Shown here in pieces: positions 8,901-64,000 of a DNA stretch of 64,000 nt. Made by a program: the position numbers and the translations under genes. Below the pieces are notes generated by a model, which was not told where the DNA came from, made no database searches, and was given only the letters and a program-made list of their open reading frames with translations. Position 1 is the first letter of the stretch; every line of letters starts with the position of its first letter. The DNA is taken from positions 1,364,001 through 1,428,000 of the forward strand of contig NC_060025.1 of assembly GCF_021134715.1 (NCBI RefSeq). The letters are read 5' to 3'. This DNA is from Daphnia pulex. Taxonomy: Eukaryota; Arthropoda; Branchiopoda; Diplostraca; Daphniidae.

Positions 8901-10056
8901 GATCCTCCTTGGTCCTGGGTCCCATCTAGAGTACATAAAAAAAGTATGGTTAGACACTTAGAATTAAAAAATATACCTGAGATCCATTGGCGAAGGTCCT
9001 AGCGTGCGGCGATCTTGAAGTGGCTCCGGTGGTGGCGGCGGCGGCGGTGGCGGCGATCCTCTCCAGTCTAAATAAAATCCAAAAACATTAGTAAAAGAAG
9101 TCTAAGGCATTCAAAATCAAATAAAATGTACCTTCGACCCGTGGGCCAGGGTCCTATCTTGAAGCGACGATCTTGTAGTGGCGGCGGCGATCCTCCTTGG
9201 TCCTGGGTCCCATCTAGAGTACATAAAAAAAGTATGGTTAGACACTTAGAATTAAAAAATATACCTGAGATCCATTGGCGAAGGTCCTAGCGTGCGGCGA
9301 TCTTGAAGTGGCTCCGGTGGTGGCGGCGGCGGCGGTGGCGGCGATCCTCTCCAGTCTAAATAAAATCCAAAAACATTAGTAAAAGAAGTCTAAGGCATTC
9401 AAAATCAAATAAAATGTACCTTCGACCCGTGGGCCAGGGTCCTATCTTGAAGCGACGATCTTGTAGTGGCGGCGGCGATCCTCCTTGGTCCTGGGTCCCA
9501 TCTAGAGTACATAAAAAAAGTATGGTTAGACACTTAGAATTTAAAAATATACCTGAGATCCATTGGCGAAGGTCCTAGCGTGCGGCGATCTTGAAGTGGC
9601 TCCGGTGGTGGCGGCGGCGGCGGTGGCGGCGATCCTCTCCAGTCTAAATAAAATCCAAAAACATTAGTAAAAGAAGTCTAAGGCATTCAAAATCAAATAA
9701 GGTGTACCTTCGACCCGTGGGCCAGGGTCCTATCTTGAAGCGACGATCTTGAAGTGGCGGCGGCGATCCTCCTTGGTCCTGGGTCCCATCTAGAGTACAT
9801 AAAAAAAGTATGGTTAGACACTTAGAATTAAAAAATATACCTGAGATCCATTGGCGAAGGTCCTAGCGTGCGGCGATCTTGAAGTGGCTCCGGTGGTGGC
9901 GGCGGCGGCGGTGGCGGCGATCCTCTCCAGTCTAAAGAAAATCCAAAAACATTAATAAAAGAAGTTGAAGGCATTTAAAATCAAATGAAATGTACCTTTG
10001 ACCCGTGGGCCAGGGTCCTATCTTGTAGTGGCGGCGGCGATCCTCTTCGGTCCATG
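5995..10056 (-). repeat. Tandem array of a 288-bp unit with exon/intron-like modules
   Basis: The landmark AGTACATA recurs at 6053, 6341, 6629, 6917, 7205, 7493, 7781, 8069, 8354, 8642, 8930, 9218, 9506 and 9794. The spacing is 288 bp throughout, except one 285-bp unit that lost a GGC triplet. Copies are almost identical; differences are single bases and GGC-tract length. Read on the minus strand, each unit is a 91-nt GC-rich module A, a 51-nt AT-rich spacer (GTATAT...CTCTAG), an 82-nt module B and a 64-nt spacer (GTACAT...ATTTAG). Both spacers have donor, branch-like (CTAAC, CTAAT), pyrimidine and acceptor signals and typical local intron length. A and B are themselves related (GAGGATCGCCGCC start, CTTCAAGAT/CTACAAGAT middle). 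Because 91 and 82 are each 3n+1, successive modules shift frame, so no long spliced protein results. It could be a non-coding transcript, a decayed repeat gene or a satellite. Confidence 0.9.
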
Positions 10057-46828: not shown

Positions 46829-47326
46829 TTTTCAGAACCCTGGTTTTCTATAATTTTTCTTAAGCTGAAAAAGTCAAAAGAATCCTTTTTAAGGTAGCCT
46901 AAGCAACCGGCTATCCACAGAAAACTGACGTCTGACGTGTAAACGAAAGAAAATCTAATATGCGGAAATGGTTGGCGGACTGGCGGTTGAAGAGTTCCCC
47001 TGGTGGCATTTTGTGGTAATATTATTTCCAAAGGCGGCAAGACGGCAGGCGCAGGCCTACAGGCTACAGCAATGCAGCACAGCATTCAAAGATCATCTTA
47101 TTAAGGATTTAGTCTGCTTACTATTCTCAAGTAAACTTTTCAACATCCGATTTAACTTATTCCAAAAAGATAAGGTAAAATTTCTCTGAAAACATATTTC
47201 GTGGTGTATTGATAAGAAATGTTTTTACGTGATGGAGTCTAAACTATAAGTTTTATTTTTCTAGTGACTTCATTCTGATTCACTTGTGTTTCTAAAACCG
47301 TGGCTTGTTGCTTGCTAGACATAAAA
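46829..47326. promoter_or_regulatory. Divergent promoter region, glucosidase II beta / BTB gene
   Basis: A 498-bp spacer between head-to-head start codons must hold both promoters. A GGCGG/GGTTGGCGGAC-rich patch lies at 46968-47060. There is no clear TATA box. A CTAG acceptor-like site ten bases before the BTB ATG (47318) hints at a 5' UTR intron. Confidence 0.45.
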
Positions 47327-48412
47327 ATGTCCGTCGATTCCCCCATTATATTGGTTGAAGAAATACGTCTCGGTTTGTTTCGAATTTACTGGGAGTTAGA
47401 CAACAGCATGTGGAAAAAAGAAGATGTCTACCAAGAAGAATTTGAACTGTGTGGATCGAAGAAGGGTAGAGAATTCTACCTCAATTTTGAACTCCAAGTA
47501 GTTGCAAGCAAGAATAGACCTTACGACTTCAAAATAACAATTGAAGATCTCTTGTGTACTGATGGTAATGATTCTGAAAAGGAAGAAAAAGAATCAACAT
47601 CCCAATCTCAACAAGAACAACCACAGTCCAAACGTCAAAAGTTAAATAAATCAACAGTGCCATCCAACATGCTGCCAGCTATGTTCCCCACCTACGTGTG
47701 GTTAGATAGCCATGTCAGTTCCACCAATGAGCTGCCACTTTTGGAAGATGAAGAAGGAATTTGGGAAGTGGCAGTTACTAACCCGAACATACAACCCTAC
47801 ATCGCTGTATGGATGGATTTCGGGACCAACGAAGTGAAGGAAAAACACGTCATTACCGGACTAGCCGATATGTTCCACAACCAAAAGCAATGTGATGTTC
47901 AGTTCGAGTTCAACGACGGGCAATCTGTTGGTGCTCACATAGTCATCCTGTCCGCCGGCAGCCCTGTATTTGCCGCAATGTTTCAGTCGGATTTCTTGGA
48001 GACCAAAACGCGTAAAGTAACCATCGTCGACGTCGAAATTGCTGTCTTTAAACAGTTACTCATCTTTCTGTACACTGGTAATGCTCCCAGATTAGCGGAG
48101 GAAAGCATCACGCGTCTACTCTTCGAGTTGGCTGATAAATACGGTGTTGGTGCTTTAAAGGATGAGTGCGTCGACGTGTTACTTACTCAATTCAACATTG
48201 AAAACGTTATTGACATGATGGTTTGGGCTCATTTTCACTCAATCGAAGAACTTTCTCAGAAAGCCATGAAGTTCTTGGTGAAAAACTTTCGCAAGCTCTG
48301 CGTCCAGCCCGAATGGATGGAACTGATGAAAAATCACCCTGATTTGTGCCTCCGTGCTAACCAACAAATGGCCGAACTTCTGCCCAAAACTGAATCGGAA
48401 GATTCAGAGTAA
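47327..48412 (+). CDS. MATH/BTB (SPOP-like) protein, intronless
   Basis: One uninterrupted 361-aa frame. Residues 1-~165 resemble a divergent MATH domain (REFYLNFELQVV, YDFKITIEDLL) with an inserted acidic/Gln-rich stretch (~85-115) that ends in a basic patch (SKRQKLNK). Residues ~180-290 are a BTB/POZ domain: KQCDVQFEFNDGQSVGAHIV, LSAGSPVFAAMF and VFKQLLIFLYTGN are diagnostic. The last ~70 residues look like the start of a BACK/3-box helix bundle. SPOP-type proteins are substrate adaptors for CUL3 ubiquitin ligases; that role is inferred. The lack of introns contrasts with its neighbours and suggests a retrocopy or a member of an intronless family. The ATG at 47327 is chosen because the upstream frame has only GTG. 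The stop overlaps a possible donor (CAGA/GTAACT), so a spliced longer C-terminus using an acceptor at 48714 is possible. Confidence 0.83.
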   Translation: MSVDSPIILVEEIRLGLFRIYWELDNSMWKKEDVYQEEFELCGSKKGREFYLNFELQVVASKNRPYDFKITIEDLLCTDGNDSEKEEKESTSQSQQEQPQSKRQKLNKSTVPSNMLPAMFPTYVWLDSHVSSTNELPLLEDEEGIWEVAVTNPNIQPYIAVWMDFGTNEVKEKHVITGLADMFHNQKQCDVQFEFNDGQSVGAHIVILSAGSPVFAAMFQSDFLETKTRKVTIVDVEIAVFKQLLIFLYTGNAPRLAEESITRLLFELADKYGVGALKDECVDVLLTQFNIENVIDMMVWAHFHSIEELSQKAMKFLVKNFRKLCVQPEWMELMKNHPDLCLRANQQMAELLPKTESEDSE

Positions 48413-49090
48413 CTATTCTTTTCTTTGATAAAATATGTTGTGTTCATTTTTTTCTCGAGTTTTTGCCGAGTTTGTGTCCGTTGATAAATAGCATATGTTT
48501 GGCTTCGAATTTGTTCAACTGAAAGAGAAGGTATCTGCAAATGTGAAGCCAACTGTAATCTTTGAAAGTCTTGATATCCTTCAGATAAATTTAAATTTCA
48601 CATTTAATGTATTAAAGAGCATGTGCAATTTCGCGTGAAAACATCATAATTTAAAAACAAAATTATTTCGTCGAGTTTTTTTTTTTTGAATTGCATTCTT
48701 TCTTTTTTATTTCAGTTCTTCAGAAAATCCTCGTTTGCAAATTAGTGGAGGTAAAAACATTTTCTTTATTTCTATCCTTATTCACGTATTTTATTATCTC
48801 TAACATACTGTTCCTTGTATTTTAAAAGTCACAACTGTTCAGAAATTCGACATCAGTCTTTCTTAATCAAAATTTCAGCAGCATCGAAAATTTTTCCAAC
48901 GAAGTGTTGTTTTAGTATAGTAAGGATAAAAGGGGGGAAATAATTATAATCAAAGGGTTATGAAGATTGGAGAGGACAATCGTCGAGCTAAAATCAAGTA
49001 AGATAATATACACAATTTTGTTTCTTTTGCTAAGAGACTTAAAAAGTACGAGGAGGAGGAGGACCTTCAAGTTTCAAATGACAACTCGTC
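48413..49090. other. Spacer with an isolated exon-like segment
   Basis: AT-rich. A strong pyrimidine tract and acceptor at 48700-48714 is followed by a 35-base GC-balanced segment and a GTAAAA donor. It could be a 3' exon of the BTB gene or an exon of the TRMT44-like fragment. A second exon-like piece (GTTATGAAGATTGGAGAGG...) ends at a GTAAGA donor near 48998. Confidence 0.35.
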
Positions 49091-49094
49091 TAGG

Positions 49095-49479
49095 AAGAAC
49101 ATTCGTAGTACCAGGTTTATTCCCGGGTGTCCCACCCCTTTAACGTGGTTGAAAAGTGAAACAACACGTAGGGCATATCAGCTTGACATATTCGAACTGG
49201 AAGACGACCATCCGGTTCTTGCAACAAACAGCTGCAATGCATATTGCTAAACTCTCCCAACTTCCCCGGGAATGGAATCGGGGTGGGGAAATTAAATTTA
49301 CAGATTTGGTGACACTAGTTCATCAGGACTTCAAAGATTACGATCAGTTAAAAAGCGAGTGCGGAGGAATTCAGACTTTATTGTGAAACCATATTTTTGT
49401 TGTGCAAAACAAGTGCGTTCGTTTTCGTGCTCCCAAGGAGTTGTCGGTTGAGGAATGGCGAAATCAACAGAAGCAATAG
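49095..49479 (+). pseudogene. TRMT44-like tRNA methyltransferase 3' fragment with in-frame TGA
   Basis: The plus strand encodes a segment like the C-terminus of TRMT44, the tRNA(Ser) uridine-44 2'-O-methyltransferase. It contains REWNRGGEIKFTDLV, then LKSECGGIQTLL, a TGA at 49384-49386, and a further 30 codons in the same frame (NHIFVVQNKCVRFR...SVEEW) to a TAG at 49477-49479. In the family the residue after TLL is usually Arg, so the TGA fits a CGA-to-TGA change. An upstream block (FIPGCPTPLTWLKS, about 49113-49155) also fits but lies in another frame. Methyltransferase-core exons are not visible upstream. It is best read as a decayed fragment; a sequencing error or a real stop codon cannot be excluded. 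Family recall is from memory, without alignment. Confidence 0.5.
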
Positions 49480-50194
49480 AACATAGAAGCCTACTAAAGC
49501 AACTAAAATTTCCCGCCTGGATACCATTGGTCGCTTATCTTTGGGAAATTTAACTGTGTCATTGGCAACCATCTCTCCACCCATGACTTATGTGTGCTTT
49601 TACTGCTTTATCAGTTTGAAGTTTGAATTCTTAAGTCGTAACTTTTTTAGGCGGTTGAGTTGCGCAAATTGGCAACGCTGCTTCAATTTCCACGAAAGTT
49701 CGTCTGCTCGCCTATGCTCATCAAATGCAAAAGTCAAAACGGTCAAAACATCAGAATTCTATTGTATCTTGTAAGTCGTAAACTCATAGAGTGTGGTTGT
49801 TCGTTGATTACTTTCAACGCGGTTGCAACAGAGAAGTCAAACCAAGGAAATGTGCGATCTACAAATCGGTAGGCGTCTAAGTGTGACAAAAGTATCTGCT
49901 TTCCAAGACTAAGAGTGTATGTACGTATCAAGCTTCATTGCGGCTTCCTTCTGAAAACAACTTCAGCTCAAGGTTTTAAAGTAAGTTTTTTGTAACATAA
50001 TTAAGTCTCATTAATTTATAAACATTTCTCATTTTCCGTATTTGTAAAAATCCGATCATTTCCCTAATATATTCATTCTTTCTGTACTTCTGATGGTTAC
50101 TAAATGTTTCTCTAACACGGTAACTGTTTATTTTGTATCAAGACGAACCTGATTTTTGAGATCCTCTTTGAATTTCCATTCAGTTTTGTATGTC
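49480..50194. other. Spacer before the visible palindrome arm
   Basis: No supportable gene. The palindrome's right arm leaves the window at 64000, which pairs with about 50195. Whether this spacer also belongs to the left arm cannot be seen from here. Confidence 0.45.
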
Positions 50195-51374
50195 AATAGA
50201 AAAAAATCCCAAGCCAAAATCACCCTTAATCGAAATTTTACCTGGACGTTCCTGACCAGATCCAGATTTTTGCTAGAAACAGTCCATTTCAACCCAAATT
50301 TTCCGAATTGAATTTTCTTTTCGTAAACTTCCGACGTGCCGGCTGTTTTGGTTGACGAAGAAAATGTTGAGACTGTGTAGCGTCACTCTATGTACGCTAG
50401 AACTAGAAGATGATCTGCGTCCTACTCGTCCTATTGTTGTCAGGCTTGTTTCATGTATTTATTTCGATTTATTTAAACTAAAACGTGTTTATAAATTTCC
50501 TTAAAAGAAAGCTGTAAATAATTGAAGACCAGAGAGTAGATTCCTTTGTTTACTTTTGATGTAATTTTACGTAAAATCTTAAGATGTGGTTTTATGTGAT
50601 TGAAATTTCATCGTTTACCCCTTTTTTTTGGTAATTGGGTAAGCTTGTTTACCCTTAAACTATGAAATCTCTTACATCTTAACAAATTTAAGTAACCGCT
50701 TAATTCTACTTTACTCCGTTTATATGGCTCGTAGGCCTAGTGAACAGAAAGTTACCGACGACGATGAGTAAATGTTCGTAAATGTTTCGTTTTTTTCGTG
50801 GTTTCGTATCAATTCAACTATTTTTTCTCTATGTGCGTTACTTTATAATATCTTAGGTTAAATTTTGGTATATTTTCAACATTTTCCAACTGATGCAGTG
50901 TTTATTAATTATTTTTCAATTACCATTGTAGAGTTCAACCTGCAGACGGGCCGGCCAGTTTGCATGTCCTTAACGCTTGAAGGTCACGAGGAAGATTACG
51001 TAAAACTGTCAATGCGGTGGTGTAAAGGTTGGGTGAGAACTGGACGTGTTGCATCATTATCAAGCAGGTACAAAAGCCGCAAGGCTCAGCCATTTGGTTT
51101 TCATTTTGATTTTGGTTTTTGTTTGATTTTGGTTTTTGTTTGATTTTGGTTTTTGTTTGATTTTGGTTTTTGTAGACCCATCCCCAGCAACATCAACCTA
51201 AAGAAGGAAAGCCCAGTTTGCATTTCCTTCACTTTCGAAGGTCACAGAGATCATTACGAAAAACGTGCCATGTGACGGCGGAGAGGTTGGGTGAGAACGA
51301 CACGTGTAACATCATTATCAAGCAGGTTCAAAAGCCGCAAGGCTTTAGAGGTGGGTCAGGGTGAGAAAAAGTCT

Positions 51375-51409
51375 TATAAAAGGAGAGAGAAGAGACGATT
51401 AAAATCAGT
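51375..51409 (+). promoter_or_regulatory. TATA box and initiator, repeat-protein copy 1 (left arm)
   Basis: TATAAAAG begins at 51375 and an arthropod initiator TCAGT at 51405, with its A at 51407, 32 bases downstream. It is preceded by GGGTCAGGGTGAGAAAAAG, also found before copy 2. The mirror lies at 62803-62837 on the minus strand. Confidence 0.7.
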
Positions 51410-52095
51410 CGAGTGAGGATCTCCGACACGGTAACAACTGCAGCGCTCTTGCATTTTTCAATGTAATTAGTTCGCAATCTCTGGTAAATATTCTGTCACT
51501 TGTATTTTTGTATCAAATTTTATTGTTATTTAGTCAGTTATAGTTGCATATTTATGTTCAAATTATTAATTATCTAGTAATCTATGGCGTTGTGCTGCTG
51601 CATTGGGTGTTGAATCATTGATGATTGGGTCGACCACTGGTGTACTGATGTCTCCTGGCCCTGTGTAGTGTATGGTTGATATCAAAGCACAACATTGCTG
51701 TCTTATTACTCAACATCAACCAATGCTGTTCCAGCTTACACCACCAAGGCTCCAATGTACTACACCACCAAGGCTTTAGAGTATTACAAGTTGCATTAAA
51801 GGGGAGAAAAAAAGGCTTTTCCGACCCGACAACAACTGCCGTGCACAATTTGTCACCAACTGCCTTTTCATCGTATAAAGGGGTAAATTTTCAGTTTTCT
51901 ACATAGAATTGTGAATCAACTCTCCTTTTTTAAAATTATGTCTTTATTATCGCATATTTATGTTCCAATTATTTATTGTATAGTAAACTGTGGCGTCGGA
52001 TCAAATACTACACCAACGAGGCTTCAAAGTATTACACTACAATTTATGCTGCTTCGAGATGTATCACCAAAGAGCCCGAGTACTACATCGTGATT
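51400..52095 (+). pseudogene. Tyr/Thr-rich secreted repeat-protein gene, copy 1, decayed (left arm)
   Basis: After the promoter comes a short exon and an intron ending near 51592. A signal-peptide-like exon is aligned with copy 2 (GTTGTGCTGCTG...GGGTCGACCACTGGTGTACTGATGTCTCCTGG) but frameshifted and stopped. Remnants of repeat units follow (TACTACACCACCAAGGCT at ~51757 and GAGTACTACATCG at ~52078). Without a continuous frame, no protein is expected. Confidence 0.6.
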
Positions 52096-52311
52096 GCATT
52101 CGTTTTAAGCCATAACCATTTGGTATTAATTTGATATTGTTTGGTGTAGACCCATCCCCGGCAACATCAACCTGCAGATGGGCCGACCATTACGTAAAAC
52201 TGTCAATGCGGTGATGTAGAGGTTGGGCGAGAACGGGAAGTGTTTGCTTCATTATCAAGCAGGTATAATAGCCGTAAGGCTTAAGAGAGGGGTCAGGGTG
52301 AGAAAAAGTCG

Positions 52312-52346
52312 TATAAATGGCAAGAGAAAAGTCGACAGCGATCAGT
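52312..52346 (+). promoter_or_regulatory. TATA box and initiator, repeat-protein copy 2 (left arm)
   Basis: TATAAAT starts at 52312 and initiator TCAGT at 52342, with its A 32 bases after the TATA start, exactly as in copy 1. GGGTCAGGGTGAGAAAAAG lies directly upstream. The mirror is 61869-61903, minus strand. Confidence 0.7.
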
Positions 52347-53121
52347 CGAGTGAGTATCTTCAACACAGCAACAACTGCATCGCAATATTTGTCACCAACT
52401 GCCTTCTTCATTGTACAACCAATTCACAATTTTGGGTGAACACTCATCTTTATTTCGAGTCGTGAATCAATTTTGTCTTGTTATCAGTTTATAACTTTAT
52501 ATGTGTAGTTTGAGTTTATATTCGATAATTAATGTTCCAATCGTTTACTGTCTAGGCGCCGTGCTGCTGTTTGGTGTTGTATCGCTAATGGTTGGGTCGA
52601 CCACGGGTGTACCGATGTCTCCTGGATATGGTGGATACCAAGCAACAGCAGCGAAAGAATACTACACCACGTCGCCGCCTTACTACACAACAACGTCTAG
52701 ATACGCATCATCTACTAACTACGCCGAGGCCCTCAAGTGCAACACCACCAAGGAACAATAGTTACGCTACAAATTACGCTGCCCCGAGTTGATCACCAAA
52801 GCGCCTGAGTACTACATCACCGAGGCTCCCAAGTACTACACCACCGAGTATTCTGTCCCAGCCTACTACACCGCGGTCCCCAAGTACTACACGACTACGA
52901 ATGCTTCCTCAGCCTACTACACCGAGGCTCTAACTTATTTCAATACCACAGCGGTCGAGTACTACACCGAATCACACAAGTACTACTCTGCCCCGAACTA
53001 CACAACTACAACTTAGGCGGCGAAGTACTACTTAGCCCAGGCTTACAACACAGCAGCTGCTCCTTCGTACTACATTGAACCGAAATACTACACCGAGTAT
53101 TACACTACACCCAAAGGGTAA
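52342..53121 (+). pseudogene. Tyr/Thr-rich secreted repeat-protein gene, copy 2, decayed (left arm)
   Basis: An acceptor at 52554 opens an exon with a hydrophobic leader (AVLLFGVVSLMVGSTTGVPM) followed by PGYGGYQ and KEYYTTSPPYYTTTSRY. The frame stops at 52759. The repeat continues in another frame from 52789 (TKAPEYYITEAPKYYTTEYS) and ends in TEYYTTPKG at about 53118, with further stops. Units are variants of (K/E)xxxYYT, a composition seen in arthropod secreted matrix, cuticle-like or adhesive proteins; the role is inferred. No initiator ATG is obvious in the first exon. It is probably a pseudogene, as both arms share the same defects. Confidence 0.6.
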
Positions 53122-53396
53122 CTATTCTGCTGTTACATAGTTTTGTATCAATTTATATATGTTTTTTTTTCTTTATGCCTGTTATTATTGAAAACTAAAG
53201 GATTCAAGGCCAACGTTTCATCGAGGCTCCTTAGTATTAAACAGCAACCTACGCTGTTCCATCTTAGGAAACATGGGTAAATGTTTTTTTTTTTTTTGTT
53301 TTGTTTTTTCATTGAGTTGTGAATCATTACATATTTTTCGATTGTTAATTTACTAGTTAAAAATTGAGAATTAATGTTAAAATTTTTTTCTGTCTA

Positions 53397-54861
53397 GTTA
53401 ACCATGGCTTCGTGCTCCTTGATGGTTGGGTGGACCACTGGTGTACCGATGTCTTCGAGTACGGTGGATACTAAACCGCAACGCCGGCGTCTTACTACAC
53501 ATCAACATACGCAATAACCGGATGCTACACCACCAACACCCTAGAGTGTCACACTGCAACATATGATTCCCCGAACTTCTACACCGAAGCATCAAAGTAT
53601 AACTATGCCCAAAGTTACAGCACGAAGGCAGCGGAGTAGTACAGCACGAAGGCAGCGGAGTAGCACAGCGCGAAGGCAGCGGAGTAGCACAGCACGAAGG
53701 CAGCGGAGTAGCACAGCACGAAGGCAGCGGAGTAGCACAGCACGAAGGCAGCGGAGTAGCACAGCGTGAAGGCAGCGGAGTAGCACAGCACGAAGGCAGC
53801 GGAGTAGCACAGCACGAAGGCAGCGGAGTAGCACAGCACGAAGGCAGCGGAGTAGCACAGCACGAAGGCAGCGGAGTAGCACAGCACGAAGGCAGCGGAG
53901 TAGCACAGCACGAAGGCAGCGGAGTAGCACAGCACGAAGGCAGCGGAGTAGCACAGCACGAAGGCAGCGGAGTAGCACAGCACGAAGGCAGCGGAGTAGC
54001 ACAGCACGAAGGCAGCGGAGTAGCACAGCACGAAGGCAGCGGAGTAGCACAGCACGAAGGCAGCGGAGTAGCACAGCGGGAAGGCAGCGGAGTAGCACAG
54101 CACGAAGGCAGCGGAGTAGCACAGCACGAAGGCAGCGGAGTAGCACAGCACGAAGGCAGCGGAGTAGCACAGCACGAAGGCAGCGGAGTAGCACAGCACG
54201 AAGGCAGCGGAGTAGCACAGCACGAAGGCAGCGGAGTAGCACAGCACGAAGGCAGCGGAGTAGCACAGCACGAAGGCAGCGGAGTAGCACAGCACGAAGG
54301 CAGCGGAGTAGCACAGCACGAAGGCAGCGGAGTAGCACAGCGTGAAGGCAGCGGAGTAGCACAGCGTGAAGGCAGCGGAGTAGCACAGCGTGAAGGCAGC
54401 GGAGTAGCACAGCGTGAAGGCAGCGGAGTAGCACAGCACGAAGGCAGCGGAGTAGCACAGCACGAAGGCAGCGGAGTAGCACAGCACGAAGGCAGCGGAG
54501 TAGCACAGCGTGAAGGCAGCGGAGTAGCACAGCACGAAGGCAGCGGAGTAGCACAGCACGAAGGCAGCGGAGTAGCACAGCACGAAGGCAGCGGAGTAGC
54601 ACAGCACGAAGGCAGCGGAGTAGCACAGCACGAAGGCAGCGGAGTAGCACAGCACGAAGGCAGCGGAGTAGCACAGCACGAAGGCAGCGGAGTACTACAT
54701 TGAACCGGAATACTCAACCGAGGGTCCAGTTTCACTACACTACAACCTGCGCTGCTCCCAGGTACTACACTGAGACTCCCAAGTACTACACCAAGGCAGC
54801 CGAATATTACACCACAAACTACGCTTCCGGATCTTACTACAAGGGGATTCCTAACTACTAG
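53397..54861 (+). pseudogene. Tyr/Thr-rich repeat-protein gene, copy 3, with expanded stop-bearing minisatellite (left arm)
   Basis: An acceptor-like CTGTCTAG before 53399 and sequence matching the leader exon of copy 2 (GGTTGGGTGGACCACTGGTGTACCGATGTC) show the same family. Degenerate YYT/NY units lead into 45 tandem 24-bp units. The sense frame of a unit reads S-T-K-A-A-E then TAG-CAC. After the array come intact-looking units (YYTETPKYYTKAAEYYTT), and the C-terminus ASGSYYKGIPNY ends at a TAG (54859-54861), with AATAAA at about 54939. The gene cannot make a full-length protein because of dozens of in-frame stops. Confidence 0.75.
53619..54698 (+). repeat. 24-bp minisatellite, 45 units (left arm)
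   Basis: Unit AGCACGAAGGCAGCGGAGTA + GCAC (24 bp). Minor variants at bases 4-5 (AGCGTG, AGCGCG, AGCGGG) are scattered. The first unit ends TAGTAC and the last ends TACTAC, while internal ones end TAGCAC. The ancestral coding unit was therefore probably (S/T)TKAAEYY, and TAG-bearing units were later amplified. The antisense strand is open in all three frames (489, 360 and 354 aa), purely because of the periodicity. Confidence 0.95.
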
Positions 54862-55048
54862 AGCCAAAATTTTATTTATATTTGCAGGTTATCTGGTCAT
54901 TGATCACTGGAAATTAATTGTTCAAATTAAATGAGAAAATAAAATTTCATGCGGGTAATTCTTCTGTAAGACTTTAATTCAAGCCTTTCGTCATTGCGAC
55001 GGATGTTTTTATTTATGTTGGACATCTTCAAGGCCAGTATGCCGGGTT

Positions 55049-55231
55049 TTGAATTGTTTGTTTAATGTTTTAGAAGTGACCACTGTCTTAGTCACTCTGC
55101 ATACGGACATGGTCTTGTATTTTGACGATGATGTTCCAAAGGGTAAGTTACGAAAGAAACTTGTAACTGTTGATTTTTCAAATAAAGTTAATAGGAAAGT
55201 GGCTGAACTTTGCATAAATGAAAGACTTTGA
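55049..55231 (+). CDS. Uncharacterised 60-aa ORF (left arm)
   Basis: An open frame with no recognised domain. The segment from TVLVTLHTDMVLYFDDD through VPKGKLRKKL to NKVNRKVAEL has balanced, charged, protein-like composition, and a TTTTAG acceptor-like site precedes EVTTVL. It may be a terminal exon of something larger. The exact copy is at 59560-59742 on the minus strand. Weakly supported. Confidence 0.25.
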   Translation: MNCLFNVLEVTTVLVTLHTDMVLYFDDDVPKGKLRKKLVTVDFSNKVNRKVAELCINERL

Positions 55232-55390
55232 GGTTGAGAAAAATATATTGATACAATTCCTAAACAAAACTTGGTATTAATTTAGAGCCAATGAACAAAA
55301 AAACTTAGAAAAGAATTGTGTTATATTGTCCCACCTCCACCCACAATTCCACCACATTTTACAATCACATACATACATACATACACTTAA

Positions 55391-55596
55391 GTTAACCCGT
55401 TGGCTGCCACGCCATACAACCCGTAGGTTGTTCTCTACGCGCCATGTCTGAAGGATCCATGACCAAGGTGGGACTTGCCATTGCTGACAAGTCCGGGGTG
55501 ACAGGGGAAGATGGAATGCACGCTATTAGGAGGCCTCTAGGAAGCCCGTGCTAAGGAGGTAGGGGGGAACAAAGGCGTGGCAGACAATGGGTTAAC
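55391..55596. mobile_element. piggyBac-like MITE (left arm)
   Basis: A 206-bp non-coding element bounded by TTAA on both sides. The termini are inverted: one end reads TTAACCCGTTGGCTGCCACG, and the other, reverse-complemented, reads TTAACCCATTGTCTGCCACG. These differ at two of 18 positions inside TTAA. TTAA target duplications with CCC-starting inverted repeats are typical of the piggyBac superfamily. There is no transposase, so it is non-autonomous. Confidence 0.75.
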
Positions 55597-56670
55597 AAAC
55601 ACAAACATTACCAACAACAAATGATGATCCGCGCTGACATTTTGGAGATACCGGCGACGTTTTGGTGTCCCTCTTCTCGACGTTTCCGCTGCATTACCTA
55701 AATAAAGAGAAAACAAATTCTTATTAAGTGACATGCCAATAAAAGTTACACAATACAGATACAATAATCTAATACCTATAAATTTAATCAGAAACAATAA
55801 TCTGGTTTTTTAGCTCAAAGATTTGAAAATGCAATTTTTTTAACTTAAAACCAAGCTTGCAATATTGAGAACTGTAACCAGAACAAAGCTCACTTGCTAG
55901 TTTTTTGAAAATTTTCCGGAAGTATACCGGAAGTAACCACAGCGCCTCAACCATTGAGCTGTAGTCAAATTAAACCACATATTCGTGATCTCCATGAAAT
56001 TTGGGGTCGATTAGATGTGATTTAAACGAAATCCAAAATTTGGCCAAAATCGAGAATTTTCCTGAACTATAGTTCAGGAAAATTTTCGAAACCGGAAGTA
56101 CGAAAACGTACAAAACAAAACATGAACTTTACCACAAATTTGACGAGGATCACGAATTTGTGATTCTTTTGTACGTCAGATGAATATTTACTGAACTACT
56201 GACTGAAATGAGCAAACCGGAAGTAGAAAAAAAAACACATTATTAAAAATCTAACAAGTGAGCTTTGTTGGGGGAATAGTTATCGTCAGTTATCACTAAA
56301 TATTTCAACAAAATATCTGCCAATAAATGTTTAAAGAGATGTGCAAAGTTACTGAAACTGACTGTTTTGACAGCTGACAATTATCGAAAAGCCATCTAGC
56401 GTTAGAAAAAAGAAACGTCTAAGTAACACTTCAGCGCGCAAGAAGGGCCTGATTTGGGAATTATTACACAGAACAGACAGAGAGTTTAACGCAAATGGAT
56501 TACTAGTAGATAATCTACGAAAATAAGTCAATTGTCCGGTACCTGGCCATAATCCCGTTGTGACTGACTGCAGGTGTGTCGCAGCAACTGAAGTGAACTA
56601 ACCCGCCAGTGAAGCAGCAAAGAAGCACTGAAGCAGTGAAGCTGGATGAGCGTACGTCTTGAAAATAAGG

Positions 56671-56787
56671 ATGGAGCAGAACGTTGGTGGAAGTCCCTCT
56701 TCTGTCATGGACAAACTCCAGCATTCAATTGCTCAAGGATGTCCGTGGGGATCTTGCATGCTCTGTAAAAAAAATGAGTTGCAATGA
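56671..56787 (+). CDS. 38-codon ORF near the palindrome core (left arm)
   Basis: ATG at 56671 opens MEQNVGGSPSSVMDKLQHSI and ends after a Cys-rich CPWGSCMLC at 56785-56787. A GTAAAAA donor-like sequence follows CTCT near its end, so it could be a first exon. Its phase does not fit the next ORF. Exact copy on the minus strand at 58004-58120. Confidence 0.25.
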   Translation: MEQNVGGSPSSVMDKLQHSIAQGCPWGSCMLCKKNELQ

Positions 56788-56869
56788 AAATATAAAAATA
56801 AAAAAAGCATATTAATCTTTACATTTTCTAAGAAGCACATTGAAATGTTCATGATGAAAAACCGTAATA

Positions 56870-57025
56870 ATGGAATTACAGCAGCCAACAGCATTACTCC
56901 TCGGGTGGGATAAATTTCCTGATGCCAAAGAAATGATCATGAAGTATTGCAGTAGCGTGGTGAAAGGTGATATTGATGCTTACCTTTATCATTTGGGTGA
57001 TGATTTAGTAAGGCATTTGACGTAG
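56870..57025 (+). CDS. 51-aa ORF beside the palindrome core (left arm)
   Basis: ATG GAA TTA CAG CAG opens a short frame whose composition is coding-like: LLLGWDKFPDAKEMIMKY, then VVKGDIDAYLYHLGDDL, ending RHLT and TAG at 57023-57025. I recognise no family. It ends 59 bases before the point where the arms stop being identical. Perfect duplication in the other arm (57766-57921, minus) prevents judging selection from the two copies. Confidence 0.35.
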   Translation: MELQQPTALLLGWDKFPDAKEMIMKYCSSVVKGDIDAYLYHLGDDLVRHLT

Positions 57026-57084
57026 TGTGGTTGGTGTGGTAGCAGTAGTGGGAAAATACCTTATCTCCTCACAGTTGTATTCCA

Positions 57085-57706
57085 ATTTATGTGGGCTTCA
57101 AACAGGAGTTTTAGGCTTTTGACAGTATGAGGATCTAATAGATGGTAATTGACTGAGCACTAAGTCAACTTGTTGGAATGATTGACAGTAGCTATTGAAA
57201 TATGCATCTAAAATTAGAAGAAATAAGTTTGTATAATAGAAAAATAAGGAAACTAGGTCAAGATAAACCTACATAAGATACCAAGTTCCATTTGGTATTT
57301 TAAATCACAGGAATATAAATATAATTAGCAACAATTTGTTTTGTTTCGCCCAATTCCGGCAATTCGTCTCGTTTCATGACATAGGAACAACAAGAACAAA
57401 AAGATTCAAAACTCATTACTAGATGTCGCTAGTGTCGCCCTTGTTATTGTTACTCCGTGAAACGAGTCGAAAAGGCGAAACAAATTGTAGCTAGTTAATA
57501 CTTATATTCCTGTGATTTCATATACCAAATTGAACTTCGTAACTAATGTAGGTTTATCTTGACCTATTTTCTTTATTTTTATACTGCACCAACTTATTTC
57601 TTCAAATTCTAGATGCATGCTGTCAGTCATTCCAACAAGTTGACTTTTAGCGCTGACCCATCATGCTGTCAAAAGCCTAAAACTAATGTTTGAAGTTCAC
57701 ATAAAG
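57085..57706. repeat. Palindrome core: diverged inverted repeat around a short spacer
   Basis: Inside the arms, inverted similarity continues but with many substitutions and indels. Matching blocks include GGTCAAGATAAACCTACAT (57258) with its complement near 57545-57565, CACAGGAATATAA near 57310 with TTATATTCCTGTG near 57503, and CAATTTGTTTTGTTTCGCC near 57335 with GGCGAAACAAATTG near 57475. A roughly 110-bp unpaired spacer (about 57360-57470) lies at the centre. The change from perfect to diverged pairing is abrupt at 57084/57707. Confidence 0.85.
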
Positions 57707-57765
57707 TGGAATACAACTGTGAGGAGATAAGGTATTTTCCCACTACTGCTACCACACCAACCACA

Positions 57766-57921
57766 CTACGTCAAATGCCTTACTAAATCATCACCCAAAT
57801 GATAAAGGTAAGCATCAATATCACCTTTCACCACGCTACTGCAATACTTCATGATCATTTCTTTGGCATCAGGAAATTTATCCCACCCGAGGAGTAATGC
57901 TGTTGGCTGCTGTAATTCCAT
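57766..57921 (-). CDS. 51-aa ORF beside the palindrome core (right arm)
   Basis: Identical mirror of the ORF at 56870-57025. The two copies face each other across the core, ends inward. Confidence 0.35.
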   Translation of the reverse strand: MELQQPTALLLGWDKFPDAKEMIMKYCSSVVKGDIDAYLYHLGDDLVRHLT

Positions 57922-58003
57922 TATTACGGTTTTTCATCATGAACATTTCAATGTGCTTCTTAGAAAATGTAAAGATTAATATGCTTTTTTTATTTTTATA
58001 TTT

Positions 58004-58120
58004 TCATTGCAACTCATTTTTTTTACATAGCATGCAAGATCCCCACGGACATCCTTGAGCAATTGAATGCTGGAGTTTGTCCATGACAGAAGAGGGACTT
58101 CCACCAACGTTCTGCTCCAT
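58004..58120 (-). CDS. 38-codon ORF near the palindrome core (right arm)
   Basis: Mirror of 56671-56787; same MEQNVGG start and CPWGSCMLC block. Confidence 0.22.
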   Translation of the reverse strand: MEQNVGGSPSSVMDKLQHSIAQGCPWGSCMLCKKNELQ

Positions 58121-59194
58121 CCTTATTTTCAAGACGTACGCTCATCCAGCTTCACTGCTTCAGTGCTTCTTTGCTGCTTCACTGGCGGGTTAGTTCACTT
58201 CAGTTGCTGCGACACACCTGCAGTCAGTCACAACGGGATTATGGCCAGGTACCGGACAATTGACTTATTTTCGTAGATTATCTACTAGTAATCCATTTGC
58301 GTTAAACTCTCTGTCTGTTCTGTGTAATAATTCCCAAATCAGGCCCTTCTTGCGCGCTGAAGTGTTACTTAGACGTTTCTTTTTTCTAACGCTAGATGGC
58401 TTTTCGATAATTGTCAGCTGTCAAAACAGTCAGTTTCAGTAACTTTGCACATCTCTTTAAACATTTATTGGCAGATATTTTGTTGAAATATTTAGTGATA
58501 ACTGACGATAACTATTCCCCCAACAAAGCTCACTTGTTAGATTTTTAATAATGTGTTTTTTTTTCTACTTCCGGTTTGCTCATTTCAGTCAGTAGTTCAG
58601 TAAATATTCATCTGACGTACAAAAGAATCACAAATTCGTGATCCTCGTCAAATTTGTGGTAAAGTTCATGTTTTGTTTTGTACGTTTTCGTACTTCCGGT
58701 TTCGAAAATTTTCCTGAACTATAGTTCAGGAAAATTCTCGATTTTGGCCAAATTTTGGATTTCGTTTAAATCACATCTAATCGACCCCAAATTTCATGGA
58801 GATCACGAATATGTGGTTTAATTTGACTACAGCTCAATGGTTGAGGCGCTGTGGTTACTTCCGGTATACTTCCGGAAAATTTTCAAAAAACTAGCAAGTG
58901 AGCTTTGTTCTGGTTACAGTTCTCAATATTGCAAGCTTGGTTTTAAGTTAAAAAAATTGCATTTTCAAATCTTTGAGCTAAAAAACCAGATTATTGTTTC
59001 TGATTAAATTTATAGGTATTAGATTATTGTATCTGTATTGTGTAACTTTTATTGGCATGTCACTTAATAAGAATTTGTTTTCTCTTTATTTAGGTAATGC
59101 AGCGGAAACGTCGAGAAGAGGGACACCAAAACGTCGCCGGTATCTCCAAAATGTCAGCGCGGATCATCATTTGTTGTTGGTAATGTTTGTGTTT

Positions 59195-59400
59195 GTTAAC
59201 CCATTGTCTGCCACGCCTTTGTTCCCCCCTACCTCCTTAGCACGGGCTTCCTAGAGGCCTCCTAATAGCGTGCATTCCATCTTCCCCTGTCACCCCGGAC
59301 TTGTCAGCAATGGCAAGTCCCACCTTGGTCATGGATCCTTCAGACATGGCGCGTAGAGAACAACCTACGGGTTGTATGGCGTGGCAGCCAACGGGTTAAC
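59195..59400. mobile_element. piggyBac-like MITE (right arm copy)
   Basis: Reverse complement of the element at 55391-55596 with the same TTAA ends and 18-bp inverted termini. It arose with the palindrome rather than by separate insertion, since the flanks also match. Confidence 0.75.
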
Positions 59401-59559
59401 TTAAGTGTATGTATGTATGTATGTGATTGTAAAATGTGGTGGAATTGTGGGTGGAGGTGGGACAATATAACACAATTCTTTTCTAAGTTTTTTTGTTCAT
59501 TGGCTCTAAATTAATACCAAGTTTTGTTTAGGAATTGTATCAATATATTTTTCTCAACC

Positions 59560-59742
59560 TCAAAGTCTTTCATTTATGCAAAGTTCAGCCACTTTCCTAT
59601 TAACTTTATTTGAAAAATCAACAGTTACAAGTTTCTTTCGTAACTTACCCTTTGGAACATCATCGTCAAAATACAAGACCATGTCCGTATGCAGAGTGAC
59701 TAAGACAGTGGTCACTTCTAAAACATTAAACAAACAATTCAA
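59560..59742 (-). CDS. Uncharacterised 60-aa ORF (right arm)
   Basis: Identical mirror of the ORF at 55049-55231; no recognised domain. Confidence 0.25.
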   Translation of the reverse strand: MNCLFNVLEVTTVLVTLHTDMVLYFDDDVPKGKLRKKLVTVDFSNKVNRKVAELCINERL

Positions 59743-59929
59743 AACCCGGCATACTGGCCTTGAAGATGTCCAACATAAATAAAAACATCCGTCGCAATGA
59801 CGAAAGGCTTGAATTAAAGTCTTACAGAAGAATTACCCGCATGAAATTTTATTTTCTCATTTAATTTGAACAATTAATTTCCAGTGATCAATGACCAGAT
59901 AACCTGCAAATATAAATAAAATTTTGGCT

Positions 59930-60818
59930 CTAGTAGTTAGGAATCCCCTTGTAGTAAGATCCGGAAGCGTAGTTTGTGGTGTAATATTCGGCTGCCTTGG
60001 TGTAGTACTTGGGAGTCTCAGTGTAGTACCTGGGAGCAGCGCAGGTTGTAGTGTAGTGAAACTGGACCCTCGGTTGAGTATTCCGGTTCAATGTAGTACT
60101 CCGCTGCCTTCGTGCTGTGCTACTCCGCTGCCTTCGTGCTGTGCTACTCCGCTGCCTTCGTGCTGTGCTACTCCGCTGCCTTCGTGCTGTGCTACTCCGC
60201 TGCCTTCGTGCTGTGCTACTCCGCTGCCTTCGTGCTGTGCTACTCCGCTGCCTTCGTGCTGTGCTACTCCGCTGCCTTCACGCTGTGCTACTCCGCTGCC
60301 TTCGTGCTGTGCTACTCCGCTGCCTTCGTGCTGTGCTACTCCGCTGCCTTCGTGCTGTGCTACTCCGCTGCCTTCACGCTGTGCTACTCCGCTGCCTTCA
60401 CGCTGTGCTACTCCGCTGCCTTCACGCTGTGCTACTCCGCTGCCTTCACGCTGTGCTACTCCGCTGCCTTCGTGCTGTGCTACTCCGCTGCCTTCGTGCT
60501 GTGCTACTCCGCTGCCTTCGTGCTGTGCTACTCCGCTGCCTTCGCGCTGTGCTACTCCGCTGCCTTCGTGCTGTACTACTCCGCTGCCTTCGTGCTGTAA
60601 CTTTGGGCATAGTTATACTTTGATGCTTCGGTGTAGAAGTTCGGGGAATCATATGTTGCAGTGTGACACTCTAGGGTGTTGGTGGTGTAGCATCCGGTTA
60701 TTGCGTATGTTGATGTGTAGTAAGACGCCGGCGTTGCGGTTTAGTATCCACCGTACTCGAAGACATCGGTACACCAGTGGTCCACCCAACCATCAAGGAG
60801 CACGAAGCCATGGTTAAC
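59930..60818 (-). pseudogene. Tyr/Thr-rich repeat-protein gene, copy 3, decayed (right arm)
   Basis: Mirror of 53397-54861 with the same leader remnant, stop-bearing minisatellite and ASGSYYKGIPNY end. It is 576 bp shorter because the minisatellite has 24 fewer units; flanks are identical where compared. Confidence 0.72.
60093..60596 (-). repeat. 24-bp minisatellite, 21 units (right arm)
   Basis: Same 24-bp unit as the left array. In the left array 24 internal units intervene between two blocks whose variant order (the run of four AGCGTG units, then single variants) matches here. One large internal contraction or expansion therefore explains the difference. Confidence 0.95.
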
Positions 60819-61093
60819 TAGACAGAAAAAAATTTTAACATTAATTCTCAATTTTTAACTAGTAAATTAACAATCGAAAAATATGTAATGATTCACAACT
60901 CAATGAAAAAACAAAACAAAAAAAAAAAAAACATTTACCCATGTTTCCTAAGATGGAACAGCGTAGGTTGCTGTTTAATACTAAGGAGCCTCGATGAAAC
61001 GTTGGCCTTGAATCCTTTAGTTTTCAATAATAACAGGCATAAAGAAAAAAAAACATATATAAATTGATACAAAACTATGTAACAGCAGAATAG

Positions 61094-61903
61094 TTACCCT
61101 TTGGGTGTAGTGTAATACTCGGTGTAGTATTTCGGTTCAATGTAGTACGAAGGAGCAGCTGCTGTGTTGTAAGCCTGGGCTAAGTAGTACTTCGCCGCCT
61201 AAGTTGTAGTTGTGTAGTTCGGGGCAGAGTAGTACTTGTGTGATTCGGTGTAGTACTCGACCGCTGTGGTATTGAAATAAGTTCGAGCCTCGGTGTAGTA
61301 GGCTGAGGAAGCATTCGTAGTCGTGTAGTACTTGGGGACCGCGGTGTAGTAGGCTGGGACAGAATACTCGGTGGTGTAGTACTTGGGAGCCTCGGTGATG
61401 TAGTACTCAGGCGCTTTGGTGATCAACTCGGGGCAGCGTAATTTGTAGCGTAACTATTGTTCCTTGGTGGTGTTGCACTTGAGGGCCTCGGCGTAGTTAG
61501 TAGATGATGCGTATCTAGACGTTGTTGTGTAGTAAGGCGGCGACGTGGTGTAGTATTCTTTCGCTGCTGTTGCTTGGTATCCACCATATCCAGGAGACAT
61601 CGGTACACCCGTGGTCGACCCAACCATTAGCGATACAACACCAAACAGCAGCACGGCGCCTAGACAGTAAACGATTGGAACATTAATTATCGAATATAAA
61701 CTCAAACTACACATATAAAGTTATAAACTGATAACAAGACAAAATTGATTCACGACTCGAAATAAAGATGAGTGTTCACCCAAAATTGTGAATTGGTTGT
61801 ACAATGAAGAAGGCAGTTGGTGACAAATATTGCGATGCAGTTGTTGCTGTGTTGAAGATACTCACTCGACTGATCGCTGTCGACTTTTCTCTTGCCATTT
61901 ATA
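61094..61903 (-). pseudogene. Tyr/Thr-rich repeat-protein gene, copy 2 with promoter (right arm)
   Basis: Mirror of 52312-53121 including TATA (61897-61903) and initiator. The same frame breaks are present; one base differs (ARTYF versus ALTYF in the second open block). Confidence 0.6.
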
Positions 61904-62119
61904 CGACTTTTTCTCACCCTGACCCCTCTCTTAAGCCTTACGGCTATTATACCTGCTTGATAATGAAGCAAACACTTCCCGTTCTCGCCCAACCTCTACA
62001 TCACCGCATTGACAGTTTTACGTAATGGTCGGCCCATCTGCAGGTTGATGTTGCCGGGGATGGGTCTACACCAAACAATATCAAATTAATACCAAATGGT
62101 TATGGCTTAAAACGAATGC

Positions 62120-62837
62120 AATCACGATGTAGTACTCGGGCTCTTTGGTGATACATCTCGAAGCAGCATAAATTGTAGTGTAATACTTTGAAGCCTCGTT
62201 GGTGTAGTATTTGATCCGACGCCACAGTTTACTATACAATAAATAATTGGAACATAAATATGCGATAATAAAGACATAATTTTAAAAAAGGAGAGTTGAT
62301 TCACAATTCTATGTAGAAAACTGAAAATTTACCCCTTTATACGATGAAAAGGCAGTTGGTGACAAATTGTGCACGGCAGTTGTTGTCGGGTCGGAAAAGC
62401 CTTTTCTCTCCTTTAATGCAACTTGTAATACTCTAAAGCCTTGGTGGTGTAGTACATTGGAGCCTTGGTGGTGTAAGCTGGAACAGCATTGGTTGATGTT
62501 GAGTAATAAGACAGCAATGTTGTGCTTTGATATCAACCATACACTACACAGGGCCAGGAGACATCAGTACACCAGTGGTCGACCCAATCATCAATGATTC
62601 AACACCCAATGCAGCAGCACAACGCCATAGATTACTAGATAATTAATAATTTGAACATAAATATGCAACTATAACTGACTAAATAACAATAAAATTTGAT
62701 ACAAAAATACAAGTGACAGAATATTTACCAGAGATTGCGAACTAATTACATTGAAAAATGCAAGAGCGCTGCAGTTGTTACCGTGTCGGAGATCCTCACT
62801 CGACTGATTTTAATCGTCTCTTCTCTCTCCTTTTATA
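62120..62837 (-). pseudogene. Tyr/Thr-rich repeat-protein gene, copy 1 with promoter (right arm)
   Basis: Mirror of 51375-52095, with the TATA box at 62832-62837 on the minus strand and the same leader-exon remnant. A purine tract near 62400 is 3 bp shorter than in the left arm. Confidence 0.58.
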
Positions 62838-64000
62838 AGACTTTTTCTCACCCTGACCCACCTCTAAAGCCTTGCGGCTTTTGAACCTGCTTGATAATGA
62901 TGTTACACGTGTCGTTCTCACCCAACCTCTCCGCCGTCACATGGCACGTTTTTCGTAATGATCTCTGTGACCTTCGAAAGTGAAGGAAATGCAAACTGGG
63001 CTTTCCTTCTTTAGGTTGATGTTGCTGGGGATGGGTCTACAAAAACCAAAATCAAACAAAAACCAAAATCAAACAAAAACCAAAATCAAAATGAAAACCA
63101 AATGGCTGAGCCTTGCGGCTTTTGTACCTGCTTGATAATGATGCAACACGTCCAGTTCTCACCCAACCTTTACACCACCGCATTGACAGTTTTACGTAAT
63201 CTTCCTCGTGACCTTCAAGCGTTAAGGACATGCAAACTGGCCGGCCCGTCTGCAGGTTGAACTCTACAATGGTAATTGAAAAATAATTAATAAACACTGC
63301 ATCAGTTGGAAAATGTTGAAAATATACCAAAATTTAACCTAAGATATTATAAAGTAACGCACATAGAGAAAAAATAGTTGAATTGATACGAAACCACGAA
63401 AAAAACGAAACATTTACGAACATTTACTCATCGTCGTCGGTAACTTTCTGTTCACTAGGCCTACGAGCCATATAAACGGAGTAAAGTAGAATTAAGCGGT
63501 TACTTAAATTTGTTAAGATGTAAGAGATTTCATAGTTTAAGGGTAAACAAGCTTACCCAATTACCAAAAAAAAGGGGTAAACGATGAAATTTCAATCACA
63601 TAAAACCACATCTTAAGATTTTACGTAAAATTACATCAAAAGTAAACAAAGGAATCTACTCTCTGGTCTTCAATTATTTACAGCTTTCTTTTAAGGAAAT
63701 TTATAAACACGTTTTAGTTTAAATAAATCGAAATAAATACATGAAACAAGCCTGACAACAATAGGACGAGTAGGACGCAGATCATCTTCTAGTTCTAGCG
63801 TACATAGAGTGACGCTACACAGTCTCAACATTTTCTTCGTCAACCAAAACAGCCGGCACGTCGGAAGTTTACGAAAAGAAAATTCAATTCGGAAAATTTG
63901 GGTTGAAATGGACTGTTTCTAGCAAAAATCTGGATCTGGTCAGGAACGTCCAGGTAAAATTTCGATTAAGGGTGATTTTGGCTTGGGATTTTTTTCTATT

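Follow-up and report, generated by a model that had tools for sequence, protein, structure and literature searches.

A giant palindrome of Daphnia pulex belongs to a family of related gene-bearing repeats dispersed at even intervals along the chromosomes

Background

The best-known cases of arm-to-arm gene conversion come from sex chromosomes, whose palindromes are each unique; those of primate sex chromosomes were reportedly treated by Rozen et al. in 2003. Long inverted repeats, dispersed at high copy number, also characterize the foldback transposons. Daphnia pulex, the species considered here, has environmental sex determination.

In the parts of the primate study consulted, sex-chromosome palindromes bear genes and have arms more than 99% identical that are kept uniform by gene conversion (PMC8981503). 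The palindrome described here likewise has large, near-identical, gene-bearing and homogenised inverted arms. Unlike those described in that part of the source, it has relatives across contigs C1-C12 at loci of common ancestry, its family has arms of about 4 to 9 kb or more, and a collar near the axis mostly escapes conversion. The willow report similarly concerns complex palindromic repeats, but, going by its title, on a sex chromosome (PMC7023750). Among invertebrates, inverted collinear gene blocks comparable to ours appear in the portions consulted on Folsomia candida (11-16 blocks) and Adineta vaga (17-19 blocks) (PMC5490193, PMC7953838). According to the same portions, concerted evolution in Folsomia was not supported by Ks values (PMC5490193), and D. 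pulex was excluded from the second survey for want of annotation (PMC7953838). The part consulted of a study on D. pulex DNA transposons uses the word 'palindromes' for Helitrons only (PMC2884549), and the titles and abstract beginnings among the matches listed from the open-licence literature do not describe the palindromes reported here.

Results

Structure of the palindrome

The initial annotation had placed a near-perfect giant inverted repeat at 50195-64000, at the end of the window (the whole stretch of 64,000 nucleotides analysed). The repeat is present and larger than claimed: those limits hold for the part mirrored inside the window, while the whole palindrome runs from 49268 to 64918, spanning 15.7 kb and overshooting the window end by 918 bp. 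The left arm (49268-57341, forward strand, 8,074 bp) has its gene modules directed inward and is followed by a 136-bp core without an inverted partner (57342-57477). The right arm (reverse strand, 7,441 bp in total) occupies 57478-64000 within the window and ends at 64918. Arm against arm, 38 mismatches were counted in 7,438 aligned bases (about 0.5%), and chance cannot be the source of such arm length and identity. The left flank shows no relationship to the right (52-55% identity more than 8.5 kb from the axis), and a blastn search at E 1e-3 detected no inverted repeats in window positions 1-49200.

Thirty of the 38 mismatches lie at most 520 bp from the axis and 5 in the outermost 55 bp, the other 3 being scattered over the remaining 6.9 kb or so of the arms. 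All 30 near-axis mismatches fall in the 489 aligned bases adjoining the core, so that symmetry stops short of the axis; this collar (56822-57997, reaching some 0.5 kb outward from the core in both directions) escapes homogenisation.

Gene modules and non-coding blocks

The arms carry gene modules with Tyr-rich repeats, pointing toward the axis. The gene-exon motif MVGSTTGVPMS, assigned to modules by eye, lies on the forward strand of the left arm at 52588-52619 (second module) and 53422-53453 (third module), with reverse-strand mirrors in the right arm at 61596-61627 and 60762-60793, respectively. The difference in arm length is mainly that of a 24-bp tandem array, which has 44.9 units in the left arm (53617-54694, forward strand) and 20.9 in its right-arm mirror (60097-60598, reverse strand). 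Where relatives encode YYTTKAAE, the same frame of the left array contains TAG, and the module is broken. In the window copy, in-frame stops interrupt this left-arm gene module, and inside, the right arm departs from the left by only 3 mismatches and a few length changes. One gene module is thus broken in both arms, which argues that conversion is independent of a working gene. At the related locus C9c a 311-codon YYT frame is open in both arms; searches with E up to 0.1 gave neither a Pfam nor a PDB-sequence match for it.

Closer to the core there is a conserved non-coding block (55860-56224, forward strand; strongest conservation at about 55950-56083), mirrored on the reverse strand of the right arm at 58571-58931. 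It contains nested inverted repeats and four CCGGAAGT sites, which we take to be ETS-like. The MITE that had been annotated in duplicate fits this mirrored block as far as its nested inverted repeats make it MITE-like. A second, less conserved non-coding block lies 1.93-2.10 kb from the axis, at 55311-55479 (forward strand).

A family of related palindromes

In the genome searched (133.19 Mb, 13 contigs) we counted 513 copies of the core motif and 372 of the gene-exon motif. Core-motif, exon-motif and block searches placed relatives on each of contigs C1-C12, so the family is not limited to one chromosome. Inverted arms were found in all ten loci compared, the window locus included, on five contigs, although this is no rate since the loci had been selected for opposite-strand pairs. 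No N was found in the ten compared regions. The inverted arms are about 99% identical over kilobases: main arm alignments reach 97.7-99.96% in nine of the loci, the tenth, C10c, being a decayed palindrome with patches 88-99.8% identical. The axis lies at a homologous place in eight of the ten, and eight loci have a marker block 1.40-1.83 kb from it. Over the first 0.5 kb from the axis, seven loci have 84-94% identity and C9c has 64%, and identity rises to about 100% further out (C10b and C10c have altered centres). Within the palindromes, as aligned, the two arms now match far better along most of their length than next to the axis.

Of 222 mapped loci, 77 had listed matches on both strands, and in 73 of these the hits are convergent; the other 145 had matches on one strand only, in lists that are incomplete. 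As a control in the same genome, trypsin (PF00089) gave at least 184 matches (150 of 544 candidates scored), and inspection by eye of the rows listed found no equal-scoring opposite-strand pair within 20 kb.

Arm trees

Left and right arms are nearest relatives in the mid-arm tree, and stand together in the gene-segment tree, in all nine loci having both rows in each case. In the near-axis tree, by contrast, four of six loci have arms that group with those of other loci; this tree holds 14 of 23 rows, C11, C7, C10b, C10c and the right arm of C9c being without a usable match. There the left arm of C10a joins the left arm of C4 with support 100/100, the differences being 15/295 between these left arms and 23/281 between the right arms, against 44/286 and 44/288 within the loci. 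Similarly, C9a-right and C9b-left show 0/417 differences and C9a-left and C9b-right 8/445, against 32/415 within C9a and 26/415 within C9b. The AU test, applied to groups named only after the tree had been seen, rejects clades uniting both arms of C10a (p 1.4e-48) or of C4 (p 0.0012).

Since arms cluster within loci in mid-arm and across loci near the axis, the palindromes seem to have been copied as palindromes, with conversion homogenising the arms and mostly sparing about 0.5 kb at the axis. A palindrome with two different arms predates the separation of C10a from C4 and of C9a from C9b. The arms are more alike than their age allows, the pattern of concerted evolution, and this is clear for C9a, C9b, C10a and C4. 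Near-axis divergence between arms is 6-15% in five of six loci, but the arms of C9d are identical and both arms of C10d fall with right arms (18/284 differences), showing that the collar is not spared everywhere. Loci have also swapped segments, since C9c is placed with the C10 loci in the gene tree (100/100) and with the C9 loci in the mid-arm tree (99/98).

Spacing along chromosomes

The loci are more evenly spaced than chance. In a genome-wide jitter test, the 222 mapped loci left 2 gaps below 45 kb against 22.8-25.5 expected, the lowest of 3,000 shuffles having 10-11; an earlier test with 200 loci gave 1 against 18-21. These loci were typed by hand from partial lists (up to 100 places for pattern matches, 40 scored candidates for DNA searches) and merged within 15 kb. 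By eye, all loci of two source lists are included except those at 3.88-3.90 Mb on C4, whose two entries look like arms of one locus; one entry was kept in the 200-locus test and both were left out of the 222-locus test. For six runs of loci, gap-variation p values range from 0.0003 to 0.06, and are optimistic because the runs were chosen by eye after the lists had been seen.

Discussion

The palindrome at the window end belongs to a family of related repeats dispersed at even intervals along the chromosomes, which goes beyond what the window shows. Very probably it is a gene-bearing palindrome whose older palindromic ancestor had two Tyr-rich-repeat genes converging on a shared non-coding core. 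The function and dispersal of the palindromes we infer. Gene conversion between paired arms would be the homogenising process; it may fail to reach the apex, or selection may oppose it there, given the instability of a perfect palindrome. Duplicative movement or segmental duplication may have carried blocks as large as about 19 kb to new sites, and loss of close neighbours by ectopic recombination would leave the even spacing.

Of the two readings in the initial annotation, the phylogeny supports the first, a genuine palindrome homogenised by conversion between its arms, and not the second, an assembly fold-back of one locus. That a haplotype or a chimeric read was folded back is extremely improbable: an arm difference of about 0.5% is of the order of two alleles, but the flanks are unrelated, the compared regions are free of N, symmetry does not reach the axis (30 mismatches in 489 bases, plus the unmatched core), ten loci on five contigs share the arrangement, and near-axis arms are closer across loci in four of six. 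The same cross-locus grouping tells against a recent, independent inverted duplication at each locus without conversion, to which we give next to no credence. It would explain arms nearly identical within loci, but not near-axis arms 6-15% apart in five of six loci when divergence is much lower elsewhere along the arms, and it is contradicted for C9a, C9b, C10a and C4.

A giant mobile element, that is, a foldback-type transposon with gene fragments spreading by transposition, is somewhat unlikely. Like foldback transposons, the palindromes are dispersed, with high copy number (513 core and 372 exon motifs) and long inverted repeats; they include a MITE-like block, and one sharply bounded block common to C10c and C10d sits in different flanks at the two loci. 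Unlike such transposons, they show no target-site duplication at the ends of C10c and C10d, the sole two copies compared, and no fixed ends common to copies within the stretches fetched, arms ending about 4 to 9 kb from the axis where the outer end was reached. The outer segments of C10c and C10d recur partly at C10a and C10b but turned up neither at the remaining six loci nor in the window, and the even spacing is a further objection. Maintenance as working gene pairs, giving a double dose and repair of a secreted structural protein, is unlikely. It gains from the frame open in both arms of C9c, but in-frame stops break one module of the window copy and, in several pairs of loci, similarity is higher in parts of the non-coding core than in the gene modules, although not in every pair (C4-C11: gene 94%, core 85%). 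Quite doubtful is the proposal that the palindromes act as chromosome elements at regular intervals, with about one every 110 kb where present, and that their mirrored non-coding core with four CCGGAAGT sites per arm is maintained for chromosome organisation, replication or recombination rather than for the protein genes riding on them.

Related palindromes within one genome are replicates for the study of conversion, in which its stopping point near the axis, its speed and the spread of damage versus repair can be measured. Should the even spacing hold in other Daphnia, it would raise the question of what prevents large repeats from lying close together on a chromosome.

Other readings of the conserved block and arms were considered. 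The initial annotation suggested that transcription through the core would yield very long hairpin RNA; the aligned block gives no sign of constraint at the RNA level. An RNA gene was rejected for the block, 0 of 96 pairs being compensatory in nine aligned sequences; Rfam gave 6 weak matches in window positions 48000-64000, every one under the gathering score, and a tRNA scan of the whole window found none. A CTCF-like motif, searched with what we take to be the CTCF consensus, was dropped as absent from the window arms; matches to it occur singly, in one arm of C10b and in both arms of C10c and C10d.

Structure and gene content of the palindrome

In the genome searched (133,188,837 bases, 13 contigs), the window corresponds to C9:1364001-1428000. 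The palindrome at its end has a left arm at 49268-57341 and a right arm at 57478-64918, separated by a core of 136 bp. The arms differ by 38 mismatches in 7,438 aligned bases: the 489 aligned bases nearest the axis (up to 520 bp from it) hold 30, the outermost 55 bp hold five and the stretch between holds three. The largest differences in length are found in arrays of a 24-bp unit (44.9 vs 20.9 units). By eye, three modules of a Tyr-rich-repeat (YYT) gene family were recognized on the plus strand of the left arm, of which the right arm is the mirror image. The third left-arm module is broken, because TAG occurs in its array units, in the frame reading YYTTKAAE in relatives; the unit of the right-arm array is identical to the TAG-bearing one. 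An open frame with a BTB match (E 1.2e-20) and a weaker BACK match lies at 47300-48412, some 0.9 kb beyond the outer end of the left arm. At 6004-10025 lie fourteen 288-bp units in tandem, 99% matching, each of which by eye resembles an exon with a short intron on the minus strand.

Related palindromes in the genome

A 3-kb query from the arm gave at least 221 genome matches (40 of 572 candidates scored), and among the matches listed many form opposite-strand pairs about 5-12 kb apart. A 32-base non-coding core motif was found 267+246 times (up to 3 mismatches) and a gene-exon motif coding for MVGSTTGVPMS 183+189 times; the reversed controls of both gave no matches in the genome. A third core motif gave 136+121 matches, and two exact motif variants, completely listed, gave 65 and 83. 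Among the matches listed, 35 of 67 exon loci have a core motif within 10 kb (3.6% expected by chance); the remaining 32 have none, which incomplete listing may or may not explain. Merging yielded at least 222 loci on contigs C1-C12, where, among the matches listed, the strand order is plus then minus in 73, minus then plus in 3 and mixed in 1, with 145 on one strand.

Arms were compared at the window locus and at nine matched pairs, picked as looking paired, on C4, C7, C9, C10 and C11; the pairs at C4:3.88/3.90 Mb and C7:11.317/11.325 Mb and single matches were left out. All ten loci, being preselected as paired, have inverted arms, and in nine the main arm alignments are 97.7-99.96% identical. 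Inner or outer pieces are 82-85% identical in C10a, C4 and C10d (palindromes are named by contig), and the arms of C10c are decayed, with patches 88-99.8% identical. Over the first 0.5 kb beside the axis, the two arms are 84-94% identical at seven loci and 64% identical at C9c; 6.3 kb are unmatched at the centre of C10b and C10c has no aligned centre. At greater distances the arms of every compared locus but C10c are about 100% identical. Homology breaks off sharply in C9a, C9b, C9c, C11 and C7 and fades gradually in C10d; for C10a, C10b and C4 the stretch examined does not reach one or both arm ends. The decayed C10c, whose left half is 98.9% like C10d while its right half is shortened and patchy, is a natural control for conversion under disturbed pairing. 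The longest YYT-repeat open frame of the ten palindromes belongs to C9c (311 codons, C9:1630558-1631490; mirror C9:1636684-1637616); its translation is the same in both arms and found no match in Pfam or PDB.

Common origin and probable arm-to-arm conversion

The left halves of different palindromes align collinearly, in the same order, and eight loci share a marker block at a distance of 1.40-1.83 kb from the axis. Trees were built from 20 arms of the ten loci plus three pieces of two further loci (23 rows), of which 20 were kept for the mid-arm, 19 for the gene and 14 for the near-axis tree. In both the mid-arm and the gene tree, the two arms of a locus are sisters or identical in 9/9 loci with both arms. 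Six loci have both arms in the near-axis tree, and in four of these the pattern is reversed, with arms grouping across loci. The left arms of C10a and C4 are joined (support 100/100) and their right arms share one fork with C10d; C9a-L groups with C9b-R (95/96), and C9a-R and C9b-L are identical (0/417). The AU test rejects joining the two arms of C10a (p 1.4e-48) or of C4 (p 0.0012), groups that were named after the tree had been seen. Two loci speak against cross-locus grouping: C9d, whose arms do not differ near the axis, and C10d, both arms of which are placed among the right arms.

In the simplest history, an ancestral palindrome, whose arms already differed, would have been copied whole, as a palindrome, and its arms would later have been homogenized outward of the collar (about 0.5 kb on each side of the core), in some loci through it. 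The loci also appear to have exchanged segments with each other, since the position of C9c relative to C9b, C9a and the C10 loci differs, with strong support, between the gene tree and the mid-arm tree, and since C9a and C9b are 93% identical in their cores and 79% in their gene parts.

Arm-to-arm conversion is established for large palindromes of mammalian sex chromosomes (PMC8981503), a sex chromosome of willow is reported to carry palindromes (PMC7023750), and the Ks values of Folsomia palindromes gave no support to concerted evolution (PMC5490193). A survey of palindromes in parthenogenetic animals omitted D. pulex because it lacked annotation (PMC7953838). In the open-licence literature searched we found no report of this Daphnia palindrome family.

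A conserved non-coding core

Left arms of nine loci were scanned in 50-column windows. Mean difference is 1-3% around 1.33-1.46 kb and 5-9% at 1.93-2.10 kb away from the axis; in the range of 0.64-2.15 kb, most other windows show 6-34%. In 16 of the 20 arms, the two arms of a locus not being independent, the first block carries four copies of CCGGAAGT at near-constant intervals; the other four arms have 0, 2, 3 and 3 copies, and the background is 3 copies in 49.2 kb of the window. Nested inverted repeats lie inside the block, and compensatory change is absent from its predicted pairs (0/96), which suggests an element acting at the DNA level, perhaps an old MITE turned regulatory. The best conserved part of the palindrome is not in every case the core; between C4 and C11, similarity reaches 94% for the gene part and 85% for the core.

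Dispersal and chromosomal spacing

A block with sharp ends and different flanks, about 16.4 kb long in C10c and about 18.8 kb in C10d, is common to these two loci; no target-site duplication is visible at its ends in either copy. C10a and C10b also have parts of its outer segments, whereas the window and the other six loci have none. Tentatively, the family may have spread as blocks that moved by duplication and had no defined transposon end.

Among the matches listed, 2 of 210 neighbour gaps are below 45 kb. With each locus given a random shift of at most 100, 200 or 400 kb, such gaps averaged 22.8-25.5 and never numbered fewer than 10 in 3,000 shuffles. Gaps below 300 kb (n=158, among the matches listed) have a median of 109 kb. 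Such even spacing would be expected if ectopic recombination between closely spaced loci were selected against, and equally if the loci had a role that needs spacing. By position, among the matches listed, loci on C2, C5, C7, C9 and C10 appear crowded in parts and absent over long stretches between.
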